A DNA stretch of 31,275 nt from the IMG/VR virus record IMGVR_UViG_3300050343_000174, positions 1-31,275 of that record, one strand, 5' to 3'. Each line of letters begins with the position of its first letter. Position 1 is the stretch's first letter. Below are positions 990 to 5,433 of this stretch, piece by piece. The notes below the pieces were generated by a model, which was not told the origin of the DNA, ran no database searches, and saw only the letters and a program-made list of their open reading frames with translations. A program made the position numbers and the translations under genes. This stretch comes from a virus.

Positions 990-2153
990 TTAGTGCAATG
1001 CGTATTTGCCAAAATTAGGTCGGCTTAAAATTGAATAAGTTGCATACCTGCAGCTATCAATTATATGGTTATGTTTATCTATTGGTGTATTTGTAAGCAT
1101 ACCTGTTTTGTCCTCTTTCCATTTATAGTTTCTAAACTCCGATATTGCATTTACTGATGTGCTTAATACATTTATTTTATATCGTTTTAATAAATCTATG
1201 CCAGCATTAATACTGTCCCTGCCTTTTATGCTTGCAAATATGTTGTGGCCCATTTTACGCAACTCACTAATTAATCTTGGCTCTGCACTATCTGCATATA
1301 TAGTGCCTGTTATATTTTCCTTTTTTAGAAACAAGCTAATATCGTTTGTTGTCATTTGTGTTCTATGCAAATGCTCTTTTATATATAAGTTATTATTTTC
1401 TAAATAAACAGAGCATAAAACTGTCGGGTCGTTGGTGTAGCCAAAGTCCATTCCATACGATACTAAATTTGCAGTTGCAGGTATTTTATTAACCTCAACA
1501 TAATTAAATATTGTACTCCTGCTGGCTGCTCTTTCGCCCAACCCATATATTTGCCAATACTGTTCATCAGTTTGTTTTAATAGCTCTATTTCTTTTTTTA
1601 TGCTATCCTCAATAAAGGGGTTATCAAGGTATGTAGTTTTAAAAAAGTCACAATCTAATCTTGGTATTAGTTTATCATATATCCAATGGTATTCGTCTGA
1701 CGGGTTGAAATCTAAAATAACACGTTCCTGCGTTCTAAAAAGTAGCTGCTGCATATCTTCATAATACAATTCGTTTCCCTCATTTACAAATAGTAAGTCC
1801 CTTTTTCTACCTCTTATTTTTTGTGGCATATCTAAAGATATAAACTCTACAAGGTTTCCAAACAAATAATATTCAGAGTTTGATTTATTATGATGTGCTT
1901 CTGTGTATATATTATGCACCTGCAGTATATTTAAAAAATCACGCATAACTGTTGCACGCAAGCTGGGAAATGATTTTCTACATACTGTAATAACTTTGTC
2001 ATTGTTATTAATGCAATACTTAAATATTATCCAAAGTAGTATATTATAAGTTTTGCCCGACCTTGTACCACCCTGCTCAACAATAATTTTTTTATTACTG
2101 TTAGATAGATGTTTGTAGATTTTATTTGTTTGTAACGTCTTCTGTTTTATCAA
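990..2153 (-). CDS. terL: Terminase large subunit
   Basis: This is the 387-residue packaging motor that pumps DNA into the prohead and cuts it. The N-terminal ATPase has a Walker A QGGTRSGKT (residues 27-35), a Walker B DLLFVNE (119-125) and a coupling segment ILDFNPS (146-152). The C-terminal RNase H-like nuclease shows aspartates at 236 (GMDFG), 288 (YADSAEP) and 366 (IIDSCRY), matching the three-Asp metal site. Length and motifs fit the PBSX/Terminase_3 type. It overlaps terS by 32 bases and ends the packaging operon; a separate promoter follows its stop. Confidence 0.96.
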   Translation of the reverse strand: MIKQKTLQTNKIYKHLSNSNKKIIVEQGGTRSGKTYNILLWIIFKYCINNNDKVITVCRKSFPSLRATVMRDFLNILQVHNIYTEAHHNKSNSEYYLFGNLVEFISLDMPQKIRGRKRDLLFVNEGNELYYEDMQQLLFRTQERVILDFNPSDEYHWIYDKLIPRLDCDFFKTTYLDNPFIEDSIKKEIELLKQTDEQYWQIYGLGERAASRSTIFNYVEVNKIPATANLVSYGMDFGYTNDPTVLCSVYLENNNLYIKEHLHRTQMTTNDISLFLKKENITGTIYADSAEPRLISELRKMGHNIFASIKGRDSINAGIDLLKRYKINVLSTSVNAISEFRNYKWKEDKTGMLTNTPIDKHNHIIDSCRYATYSILSRPNFGKYALH

Positions 2154-2487
2154 TTATTTCAATCTTAAAATTAGTAGGCATTCCGTCTGCACCTGTAATT
2201 TCTTGCCTTTCAATATAACCCCTTTTTTTGCCTTTAGTTTTTAAATAAAATATTGTTGCTGCTGTACTGTTAGCAGATATTTGTTTATGCAGCTGGCTTT
2301 CGGCAAAATCTAATGCTACATTTTCAATATCTTTTACTTGCTGTGCAAATACATCATCTTCATTTAACCATTTGTAATAAGTGCTTCTTGGTATGTCTGC
2401 TTTTTTGCACGCAACTGTTACAACCCCTAAACTTTGTTCTAATGCTTTTAATAGGCTTTCCTTTTTTATATGTCTACTTTCGTTCAT
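2122..2487 (-). CDS. terS: Terminase small subunit
   Basis: A 121-residue protein with an N-terminal helix-turn-helix (residues about 12-42, containing VACKKADIPRSTYYKWL) and an oligomerisation-like middle with the typical 'AATIFYLKTKGKKRGY' stretch. Small terminases bind the packaging site and load the large subunit. Its position immediately before terL, overlapping it by 32 bases, supports the assignment. The start at 2487 lies inside the end of a 35-residue gene. Confidence 0.9.
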   Translation of the reverse strand: MNESRHIKKESLLKALEQSLGVVTVACKKADIPRSTYYKWLNEDDVFAQQVKDIENVALDFAESQLHKQISANSTAATIFYLKTKGKKRGYIERQEITGADGMPTNFKIEIIDKTEDVTNK

Positions 2488-2581
2488 TTTTTTTTGTTTT
2501 TTTGTTATATTTTAATTGCTTTTGCTTGTTTATATATTTAAACCTTTCAAGCATATTTATATATCTAATATCTTTTTCCAT
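2474..2581 (-). CDS. Lysine-rich micro-protein, 35 aa
   Basis: The frame starts at ATG 2579-2581, sharing its T with the speD-like stop (TAATG), and ends inside the terS start region. The product, beginning MEKDIRYINMLERF, is strongly basic, with many lysines in the second half. It may simply couple translation from the speD-like gene to terS, or bind DNA during packaging; neither is shown by the sequence. Confidence 0.45.
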   Translation of the reverse strand: MEKDIRYINMLERFKYINKQKQLKYNKKTKKNERK

Positions 2582-2850
2582 TAGTGATTTTTTACAAATA
2601 AGTCAAACTGCTCTTTTACGCAACTTGACAACTCAATATATGTTTCTTTGTGTTCGGGAAAAGTATGTATTGCAAAATGGCTTTCGCTTAATAAAAAAAG
2701 TGCTGTATAACCAAATGGCTCAAAATGCTTTTCAATAACATTTAACACATTAAAACCACTTTCCGATAATAGTTTACTGTATTTATTATAAAGTGCATTA
2801 GGGTTTGTTATATCAACCCAAACTGCATAGTTATATATTTGTGCTTTCAT
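2581..2850 (-). CDS. speD: S-adenosylmethionine decarboxylase-like protein (short SpeD)
   Basis: An 89-residue protein with the full active-site signature of bacterial/archaeal AdoMet decarboxylase, the pyruvoyl enzyme that makes the aminopropyl donor for spermidine. The motif LSESHFAIHTFPE (residues 54-66) contains Glu56-Ser57, the expected self-cleavage site that would yield pyruvoyl-Ser57. His62 is five residues on and Cys77 twenty residues on, the same spacing as Ser63/His68/Cys83 in the Thermotoga enzyme. The family is usually about 115-130 residues, so the C-terminal strands are shortened. It overlaps the ParB-methyltransferase by 20 bases and lies just before terS, so it is probably co-expressed with packaging. 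Decarboxylation of another amino acid, or loss of activity, remains possible because of the truncation. Confidence 0.85.
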   Translation of the reverse strand: MKAQIYNYAVWVDITNPNALYNKYSKLLSESGFNVLNVIEKHFEPFGYTALFLLSESHFAIHTFPEHKETYIELSSCVKEQFDLFVKNH

Positions 2851-4063
2851 CTAAATTTGTAAAATCTAATTTTTTATAATTGTTTTTAATATTTTTTGGA
2901 TTGCCTTTGTAAAACACTAATATATTTTGGTGGCATTTTCCAATTTTTCTGTTATTCATATACCTGCCTACTCTTTGTGGTAACGTGCCTAAACTTTCCG
3001 CAATAATCATTTCATTATATACTTGCAATCCATTTTGTAAAAATATGTTTTTAACATCATCAACAAAACCATAATAAAAACCTTTTTCGTCTCTTATATC
3101 CCCAACTACAATTACTGCAAACCTATCTTCTTTTAAACATTTAATTGCGCCTGTAAATGCCTTATTTATAATTTTTAAAAAATCTTTATAGTTATTTTGA
3201 TTACTTGCATCATTTTCCAATTCAGAATATACCTCTAAATCATAATAAGGTGGGCAACTAAATAATAAATCTTGGCTTGCTGCTGGTATGTGTTTTAAAA
3301 CATTTACACCGTCATCACATATATATTTGCTCTTGCTACCTTTTAATCTTTCGTTATTTAAGTCAGCCTGTTCCTGCCTTAATTCAATACCTGTAAATTT
3401 ATTGCCTAATGCATCGCTAACATAACCAAAAACACTATCGCCAGCAAAGCAATCAAAGGTATTGCCATTATCTATTCCAAACCACCTATTTGAAATTTCA
3501 GCAAGTACAGGGTCTAATATAGATGTACCGTAAAAATCACTTATTAAATTTTCTCTTGTTTCGCCATTATCCCCTATTAAGTTTTTCCAATATTTTTTTC
3601 TATCCAACCAATATCCCTGCTTTGTGTCTAATATGCTAAATGGTGGCACAATAAATATATCTTGCAACTTATTATGTTCTTCTTTTTCTTCTATTGCATC
3701 AAATGGAAAACCGTCTAATCCCCACTCTTCTAATTTATTTATATCCCATTCGTTACCTAATATGTCCCAATCCCACTCGCCAAAACCAACGTTGTCTTTT
3801 ATTATAAATTCTTCCTTTTGTGCTGCTGTTAAATCTTCTGCCTTTACAATATATACTTCTTTAAAATTTAATTCCTGGCAAGCCTTAAATCGCATATTAC
3901 CACCCAATATAATATTGTTTTCGTCCACAACTATTGGGCGCAACTTTAGCATTTGTGGAAAATCTTTTAAAGATGTTTTTAGTTTTTTAAATTTACTATC
4001 TTTAATTATTCTTGGGTTTGCAGTATTTGTTTTTACTGCAGTAATTTTTACTTTTTCTATCAT
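2831..4063 (-). CDS. ParB-like domain fused to N4/N6 DNA methyltransferase
   Basis: A 410-residue two-domain protein. Residues 1 to about 110 resemble a ParB/sulfiredoxin-type domain, including ILGGNMRFKA (52-61). From about 140 onward is a Rossmann methyltransferase with an AdoMet-binding motif I FDCFAGDSVFGY (203-214) and a catalytic motif IV SCPPYYDL (269-276), the [S/D]PPY form of amino-methyltransferases that act on adenine N6 or cytosine N4. Such fusions are common in phages and are thought to protect phage DNA from restriction or mark it. No partner restriction enzyme is present. It leads the packaging unit (speD, 35-aa gene, terS, terL) and has the CGTTATATA element one base before its start. 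Confidence 0.9.
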   Translation of the reverse strand: MIEKVKITAVKTNTANPRIIKDSKFKKLKTSLKDFPQMLKLRPIVVDENNIILGGNMRFKACQELNFKEVYIVKAEDLTAAQKEEFIIKDNVGFGEWDWDILGNEWDINKLEEWGLDGFPFDAIEEKEEHNKLQDIFIVPPFSILDTKQGYWLDRKKYWKNLIGDNGETRENLISDFYGTSILDPVLAEISNRWFGIDNGNTFDCFAGDSVFGYVSDALGNKFTGIELRQEQADLNNERLKGSKSKYICDDGVNVLKHIPAASQDLLFSCPPYYDLEVYSELENDASNQNNYKDFLKIINKAFTGAIKCLKEDRFAVIVVGDIRDEKGFYYGFVDDVKNIFLQNGLQVYNEMIIAESLGTLPQRVGRYMNNRKIGKCHQNILVFYKGNPKNIKNNYKKLDFTNLDESTNI

Positions 4064-4387: not shown

Positions 4388-4792
4388 CTATAAGCCGATT
4401 TCATTATTAGTTAATAAGTAACCAAAGTTTTTAGGTATTTTTGCAATTAATAAATCATTATATTTTTCTTTTAATTTATCGTACTGTTGCCTGTTTTTAT
4501 ATTCCTCTGTAATTTTTTGCCCTAAATAGTCAAGTTTATATATATCATATAATTTTGCGTAATTAGGTATGCTCATTAAATAATTAAATAATTTGTTCCT
4601 TGCATGCAAAACAGTTGCGTGGTCTCTATTTACTATTTTACCAATACTGCTTAATGTATTGTTGGTATTATCTATTGCTAATTTAAAATATAATGCTCTA
4701 AATAATACTGCATCAGCTTTTCTTGACCTTGTCGCTATATCATAACCTGCGCATTGGTCTACATAATTTTTAAATCTTTGTAATTTTTCCAT
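4388..4792 (-). CDS. Stand-alone DnaA domain IV-like DNA-binding protein
   Basis: A 134-residue protein whose first 90 residues match the C-terminal DNA-binding domain of the replication initiator DnaA. It has DIATRSRKADAVLFRALYF (about 18-36), equivalent to the helix that starts domain IV, then IGKIVNRDHATVLHARNKL (about 50-68), equivalent to the DnaA signature GRDHSTVLHA. The AAA+ domain and domains I-II are absent; the last 40 residues are lysine-rich and unassigned. It overlaps the C5 methyltransferase stop by one base. It may bind DnaA boxes at a phage origin or occupy host boxes. Confidence in the domain is high; the role is inferred. Confidence 0.85.
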   Translation of the reverse strand: MEKLQRFKNYVDQCAGYDIATRSRKADAVLFRALYFKLAIDNTNNTLSSIGKIVNRDHATVLHARNKLFNYLMSIPNYAKLYDIYKLDYLGQKITEEYKNRQQYDKLKEKYNDLLIAKIPKNFGYLLTNNEIGL

Positions 4793-5433
4793 TAAAATAA
4801 TTCTATTTGTTTAATATTTGATTTTTTTATAATTCCTAATGCAGTTTCAAAGATAGTTTTACCAGCTTTATAATCTACAAGGTTTCTTGCTATTTTATCT
4901 GTTCTTTGTTTTCCTTTGTATTTAGTAAAATCGTATTTATGAAATTCACACCATTTTTGCACTTCGTTTTTGCCCTCCATTATACTTAATTTTCTTTCAT
5001 TTAAATCGTTTGGTAAATTAAAGTTTGTCCAATATAAATGCCTGTTTCTTTTTTGTGCTGCAATTAATGGCTCATAATAAGGGATAACATTCTCAACAAC
5101 ATATTTTCCTTTGTACCATTTATTTAAAAATATAATTTCTTCATATAATTTTAAATCGGGATAGGCTGGAGTAGTTGTATTTCTTCTTGAAAACCTTGCT
5201 CTGCTATGTGTCGGACAAGGTGGACTGCTCCAAATAAAATCGTACTGCTGGTAATGGTCTAATAAATATTGGTGTGCATCTGCAACTATTACTGTATCAT
5301 TAGGAAAACGTTCTTGATATAGTTTAGCAAGTTCTTTGTCCCATTCAACTGCTACAACTTCAATATCTTCTTTTACTTCATTCCACTTGTATCTGTTACC
5401 ACCTAAACAAGCATATAAATTTAGTATCTTCAT
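4792..5433 (-). CDS. Short C5-cytosine DNA methyltransferase-like protein
   Basis: A 213-residue protein with the ordered motifs of DNA (cytosine-5) methyltransferases: motif I ILNLYACLGGN (3-13), motif IV SSPPCPTHSR (69-78) with the nucleophile Cys73, motif VI VVENV (112-116) and a motif VIII-like QKRNRHLYW (127-135). Normal enzymes exceed 300 residues and carry a target-recognition domain plus motifs IX and X, which I cannot find. The catalytic core seems intact, so it may rely on a partner for specificity or be a minimal phage form. Its start overlaps the TGA of the 43-residue gene before it. Confidence 0.85.
   Translation of the reverse strand: MKILNLYACLGGNRYKWNEVKEDIEVVAVEWDKELAKLYQERFPNDTVIVADAHQYLLDHYQQYDFIWSSPPCPTHSRARFSRRNTTTPAYPDLKLYEEIIFLNKWYKGKYVVENVIPYYEPLIAAQKRNRHLYWTNFNLPNDLNERKLSIMEGKNEVQKWCEFHKYDFTKYKGKQRTDKIARNLVDYKAGKTIFETALGIIKKSNIKQIELF

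Follow-up and report, generated by a model that had tools for sequence, protein, structure and literature searches.

The constant partner of the short S-adenosylmethionine (AdoMet) decarboxylase gene, speD, in the viral sequence analysed here is an overlapping gene for a ParB/amino-methyltransferase protein. This methyltransferase (MTase) belongs to a clade with a fixed change in its AdoMet-binding loop, and no recognisable spermidine synthase is encoded in any of 33 phage records, the window included. We propose, as a reading with an even chance of being correct, that SpeD supplies decarboxylated AdoMet (dcAdoMet) to the MTase-fold enzyme, which would use it to aminopropylate phage DNA. The sequence (the window) is the 31,275 nt of IMG/VR record IMGVR_UViG_3300050343_000174, and the features that matter are as follows.

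2122..2487, minus strand: terS-like gene (matches to phrog_4044 and further terS families), downstream of speD at a distance of 93 nt and outside the conserved pair
2581..2850, minus strand: speD, AdoMet decarboxylase proenzyme of class 1b type, 89 aa (PF02675, phrog_27309, T. maritima match, alignment, AF2, Foldseek)
2831..2850, minus strand: 20-nt overlap between the 3′ end of the transferase gene and the 5′ end of speD (ORF coordinates, relatives)
2831..4063, minus strand: 410-aa protein with a ParB-like N-terminal domain and an N6/N4 amino-methyltransferase fold (PF01555, ParB_N, phrog_498, profiles)
3245..3259, minus strand: motif IV, residues 269-273 (SCPPY), the amino-methyltransferase catalytic loop (computed from the ORF)
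3419..3451, minus strand: motif I region, residues 205-215 (CFAGDSVFGYV), with D209 and F212 (computed from the ORF)

A preliminary description of this DNA had placed speD between a methyltransferase gene and terS, and this arrangement was borne out on both sides, by the overlap upstream and by the terS-like gene downstream.

SpeD is a short AdoMet decarboxylase

The speD ORF comprises 89 codons beginning with ATG. In a Pfam profile search its product scored 51.1 bits against PF02675 (AdoMet_dc), above the family cut-off of 25, and residues 1-87 matched the phage family phrog_27309 at 117.5 bits. The AdoMet decarboxylase (AdoMetDC) of T. maritima (1tlu) was recovered as a sequence match with an E value of 2.8e-6, and in the alignment Glu56-Ser57, His62 and Cys77 of the window protein correspond to T. 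maritima Glu62-Ser63, His68 and Cys83 and are spaced identically (Glu immediately before Ser57, His at S+5 and Cys at S+20). These four residues were invariant across 26 diverse SpeD relatives. According to PMC10407285, S63, H68 and C83 are the processing and catalytic residues of the T. maritima enzyme; Glu56/Ser57 is the predicted cleavage site of the window SpeD, and His62 and Cys77 are predicted to be catalytic. An AF2 model of the protein had a mean pLDDT of 96.4, and a Foldseek search with this model returned AdoMetDCs as its top five matches (TMq 0.71-0.76), the T. maritima and A. aeolicus enzymes being the best, followed by human spermine synthase (TMq 0.70). The profile and phrog matches, the match to 1tlu and the residue spacing all agree with the earlier identification of a minimal SpeD, and the comparison of a structural model with the T. 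maritima enzyme upheld it. The score of 41.6 bits against the TIGR03330 equivalog (B. subtilis type) falls below its threshold of 75.65 bits, which places the window SpeD in a divergent subfamily outside that equivalog.

The 106-aa SpeD of Croceibacter phage P2559S is 53% identical to the window SpeD over 98% of the query. It gave spermidine back to E. coli lacking speD and is thus a working AdoMetDC, as reported in PMC9992855, where the evidence on its function is limited to this restoration. Because this ortholog complements the E. coli mutant, it is very likely that the window SpeD decarboxylates AdoMet. The preliminary description had also raised a change of substrate, by which the short SpeD would decarboxylate arginine, ornithine or another amine acid instead of AdoMet. 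SpeD homologs of other phages have indeed become ADC or ODC (PMC9992855, PMC10407285), but the closest characterised homolog is the bona fide AdoMetDC of P2559S, and the gene found in a cluster with the cellular relatives encodes a spermidine-synthase domain. No finding made here favours a changed substrate, and we consider it very improbable.

In fold, Glu-Ser site and spacing of His and Cys the protein resembles the class 1b AdoMetDC of T. maritima (TM0655; 1tlu, 1vr7), but it is 41 residues shorter than that 130-aa enzyme. The loss is mostly C-terminal, with the window SpeD ending 12 residues past the catalytic Cys and lacking the C-terminal third of the alpha chain. Its viral relatives were 89-111 aa long and its cellular ones 89-119 aa, short versions recurred in about 80 viral contigs, and in the aligned set the short relatives stop soon after the catalytic Cys and retain invariant catalytic residues. 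A truncated or broken SpeD is ruled out by these equally short relatives and by codons under purifying selection (dN/dS against near relatives of about 0.05-0.19). The unusual shortness pointed out earlier is therefore genuine, being seen again in viral and cellular relatives, and the P2559S homolog is active.

speD is linked to the methyltransferase gene rather than to packaging genes

The 410-aa product of the overlapping gene scored 40.4 bits against PF01555 (cut-off 26.7) and weakly, at 22.1 bits, against ParB_N. It also matched phrog_498 and ParB-like phrogs, as well as ParB structures by profile. Its AF2 model reached a moderate pLDDT of 82.4. The CPPY of motif IV (xPPY type) was invariant in 32 aligned MTase proteins.

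Among 80 distinct viral SpeD contigs, a gene for this MTase was adjacent in 75 and usually overlapped speD (by 11-41 nt in relatives, recurrently). Downstream in the same contigs, BLAST found a window-like TerS in 33/80 and a TerL in 37/80; these contigs were gathered as relatives of the query SpeD and are not a neutral sample, and BLAST may have missed divergent terminases, so that the contrast with the MTase is an upper estimate. Packaging linkage as the main association of speD was rejected on these counts. The five contigs without an adjacent MTase comprise one that starts inside speD (L014) and four large-phage loci (L132, L143, L164 and L168), and these large phages, with a short SpeD and no adjacent MTase, were counted against aminopropylation. 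An adjacent SpeD is also present at certain loci whose MTase ORF, at about 65% query coverage, is missing the greater portion of the ParB region. The pair was kept even where MTase identity falls to about 40%, with different terminases and with overlaps of varying length. Together, the counts show that SpeD and the MTase have stayed together over long divergence and in differing packaging contexts.

At three genome loci (L017, L020 and L024) SpeD and the MTase are paired within a stretch of phage genes, and these loci resemble prophages. In the cellular genomes of Tenacibaculum, Aquimarina and Marinilabiliales, which hold the closest cellular short SpeDs, speD clusters instead with genes for a DUF350 protein, a membrane protein with a Spermine_synth domain (PF01564) and an ion channel. 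The partner there is also a Rossmann-fold group-transfer enzyme, but it is a spermidine-synthase-domain protein where that of the window is a DNA methyltransferase. As the cellular short SpeD stands beside an aminopropyl-transferase-like enzyme, the phage MTase occupies the place of that enzyme. In five marine Bacteroidota loci (L022, L027, L030, L037 and L043; about 5.2-9.4 kb) this arrangement around the short SpeD is conserved, the ion channel being of TrkA type. A Woesearchaeota contig (L016:6481-7417) carries a short SpeD after an 8-oxoguanine glycosylase-like gene (PF22175).

Spermidine synthase is missing from the phage records and infrequent in likely hosts

A profile search for Spermine_synth in the window and in 32 records of related phages, fragments among them, gave no match (0/33). 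A phage-encoded spermidine module of SpeD and SpeE was thus rejected. The window matches Flavobacterium and Croceibacter phages at the DNA level, and Flavobacteriaceae are the likely hosts, an assignment made by phage relatedness only. Strong Spermine_synth matches (120 bits or more, in ORFs of 509-545 aa) occurred in 9/120 Flavobacteriaceae genomes. Matches above the Pfam cut-off occurred in 35/120, the remaining 26 scoring below 58 bits, often in ORFs only 186-260 aa long; these weak matches may be other methyltransferase-fold proteins. SpeD was present in 10/120 of the genomes. The carboxyspermidine route offers no help, since nspC exceeded its cut-off in 1/120. With few Spermine_synth genes in the hosts and none in the phages, dcAdoMet would have no known consumer in most such hosts except the phage enzyme, although the prophage-bearing genomes that were checked do carry Spermine_synth matches, which limits this argument.

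These results bear on the possibility that SpeD raises host spermidine for translation or DNA packaging and that the MTase is a mere neighbour; a role in packaging had been the first suggestion of the preliminary description. The restoration of spermidine by P2559S SpeD in E. coli speaks for such a supply, as does the benefit that phages draw from spermidine (PMC9992855). It is set back by a linkage that tracks the MTase rather than the packaging genes, by the lack of SpeE in the phage records, and by the scarcity of strong Spermine_synth matches in Flavobacteriaceae, where most of the others are weak and lie in short ORFs. We judge spermidine supply to be improbable.

A fixed change in motif I accompanies SpeD

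The ParB-amino-MTase family that includes phiFL3A gp36 and Listeria B054 gp77 (phrog_498) shares the domain layout and the CPPYxDLE motif of the window enzyme. Its motif I is typically FAGGSVRG and no SpeD partner was found for it, whereas the window combines FAGDSVFG with SpeD. Relative to this sister clade, the SpeD-linked enzymes have Gly replaced by Asp and Arg by Phe in the AdoMet-binding loop. For a sample independent of SpeD, viral contigs were scanned for DNA encoding CPPYxDLE, which is common to the whole MTase family, and 119 members were scored. SpeD was adjacent in 7/7 assessable members with FAGDxxFG, one further such member running off its contig, and in 0/105 other assessable members. 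The corresponding Fisher p of 2.8e-11 treats related sequences as independent and overstates the correlation, because the linked enzymes have a single origin (see below). The converse scan of viral contigs, with the pattern FAGD[ST][VI]FG, yielded 113 enzymes, with SpeD within the strict distance in 96, farther away in 7, cut off by a contig end in 7 and absent in 3. The greater distance in the seven was due mostly to over-long ORF starts, one lying at 834 nt, which brings the share of assessable FAGDxxFG enzymes with SpeD to about 103/106. The three without an adjacent SpeD (L357, L368 and L400) were counted against aminopropylation and are natural test cases for the source of the donor.

A column comparison of 65 SpeD-linked and 80 unlinked dereplicated MTase sequences found four fully exclusive positions (linked/unlinked: 209 Asp/Gly, 212 Phe/Arg, 183 Leu/Phe and 163 Ile/Gly) and three nearly exclusive ones (223, 247 and 250, the last D/G). 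In Rossmann methyltransferases, it is the motif I loop that grips AdoMet by its amino-acid end. From their position in the motif, D209 and F212 would lie near this end of the donor, and the loss of an Arg that could have partnered the carboxylate, together with the gain of an Asp, would suit a donor that has an amine and no carboxylate.

In a tree calculated with the motif columns removed, the SpeD-linked MTases formed one clade with full support, which indicates that the motif change and the linkage to SpeD arose once. The two genes might accordingly be hitch-hikers, joined in one ancestral phage module and co-inherited without a shared reaction, the motif differences being lineage drift. The single clade is in keeping with this, and so is the correlation between SpeD and MTase distances (Mantel r 0.64), which is expected of adjacent genes and of joint inheritance. 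On the other side stand the persistence of the pair at low MTase identity, with different terminases and an overlap maintained at varying length, the rarity of SpeD loss (3/106 assessable FAGDxxFG members) and the complete fixation of the motif I substitutions, which is unusual for drift. Hitch-hiking therefore appears quite improbable.

A further suggestion of the preliminary description was that SpeD acts as an AdoMet sink, starving AdoMet-dependent host defences or methylation; the adjoining MTase would then be an ordinary enzyme, protecting the phage at an earlier stage or binding AdoMet with high affinity. Counter-defence by phage SAM lyases is known (PMC7877911), and in most of the sampled Flavobacteriaceae, which lack a strong SpeE, dcAdoMet would be a dead end. 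A sink needs no tie to one MTase clade, however, and removal of AdoMet would starve that very MTase; the change at D209/F212 is also left unexplained. This idea thus fared less well against the tie of SpeD to a single AdoMet-family enzyme with an altered cofactor loop, and we regard it as unlikely. None of the rival explanations accounts for both the exclusive pairing and the change in the donor loop.

A proposed DNA aminopropylation cassette

Under the proposed aminopropylation, SpeD and the overlapping ParB-methyltransferase would form a two-gene DNA-modification cassette. SpeD would cleave itself at Ser57 to generate the pyruvoyl group and convert AdoMet to dcAdoMet, a step strongly suggested by the activity of the P2559S ortholog. 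The MTase-fold enzyme, with Asp/Phe in the loop where the sister clade has Gly/Arg, would accept dcAdoMet as donor and transfer the 3-aminopropyl group to an exocyclic base amine of phage DNA, either adenine N6 or cytosine N4. The ParB-like domain perhaps aids DNA binding. Charged bases of this kind would be expected to shield phage DNA from restriction and other base-reading defences. In favour of the proposal we count the linkage in 75/80 contigs, the motif I association in the two scans (7/7 against 0/105, and about 103/106), the fixed columns, the cellular Spermine_synth clusters, the lack of Spermine_synth in the 33 phage records and its scarcity, with that of SpeD, in Flavobacteriaceae, and two precedents, the active P2559S SpeD and the CmoA/CmoX system.

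The closest precedent is phage CmoA, which feeds Cx-SAM to the DNA transferase CmoX for DNA carboxymethylation (PMC12783734). Like the window pair, this system joins a synthase of an AdoMet derivative to a DNA methyltransferase homolog with a changed donor pocket, and ParB-domain genes lie nearby in both; it differs in its donor (Cx-SAM), its transferase class (C5-cytosine) and its modification (PMC12783734). No match to CmoA (TIGR00740) was found within the 31-kb record, which is possibly a fragment. Croceibacter phage P2559S carries the same gene pair with the same overlap (SpeD AFM54845, MTase P2559S_66), its MTase having the motif FAGDTVFG and its SpeD 106 aa against 89 aa in the window; the accessible text of PMC9992855 makes no mention of the MTase pairing.

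Both SpeD in phages and a phage DNA transferase that uses an AdoMet derivative are already known. No report of aminopropylated DNA or of a SpeD-MTase pairing was found in the literature searched, outside which lay many subscription papers and all preprints. Were the proposal true, the range of DNA modifications would gain a new chemical group, and CmoA/CmoX would be joined by a second phage case in which a DNA transferase draws on a private AdoMet derivative. The presence of a polyamine gene in phages whose hosts seem unable to use the product would be accounted for as well. Aminopropylation predicts aminopropylated nucleosides in the DNA of existing cultured phages (P2559S, Pseudomonas phage ZRG1), and either outcome would tell the purpose of SpeD in this group.

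Other genes in the sister clade and the window

A related downstream gene accompanies the FAGGSVRG-type MTase in 8/94 sampled members of the sister clade (L177:1406-2275, L208, L242 and others). In L208, L237 and L242 the downstream gene resembles that of a PLP-dependent enzyme (PALP) which overlaps the MTase of Mycobacterium phage Vincenzo, and a protein of Pseudanabaena phage Pam4 annotated as PLP-dependent contains the MTase region. Such neighbours may conceal other AdoMet-family chemistry. Four sister-clade MTases (L210, L227, L249 and L252) share a downstream gene of ~380 aa whose product, as judged by eye only, resembles an acetyltransferase in its first part and a dioxygenase in its second.

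The window also encodes a short (213 aa) C5-cytosine methyltransferase homolog (4792-5433, minus strand) with an SPPC motif like that of CmoX, in a record without CmoA. It is adjoined by the gene for a 134-aa protein (4388-4792, minus strand) with a DnaA C-terminal DNA-binding domain (38.1 bits).
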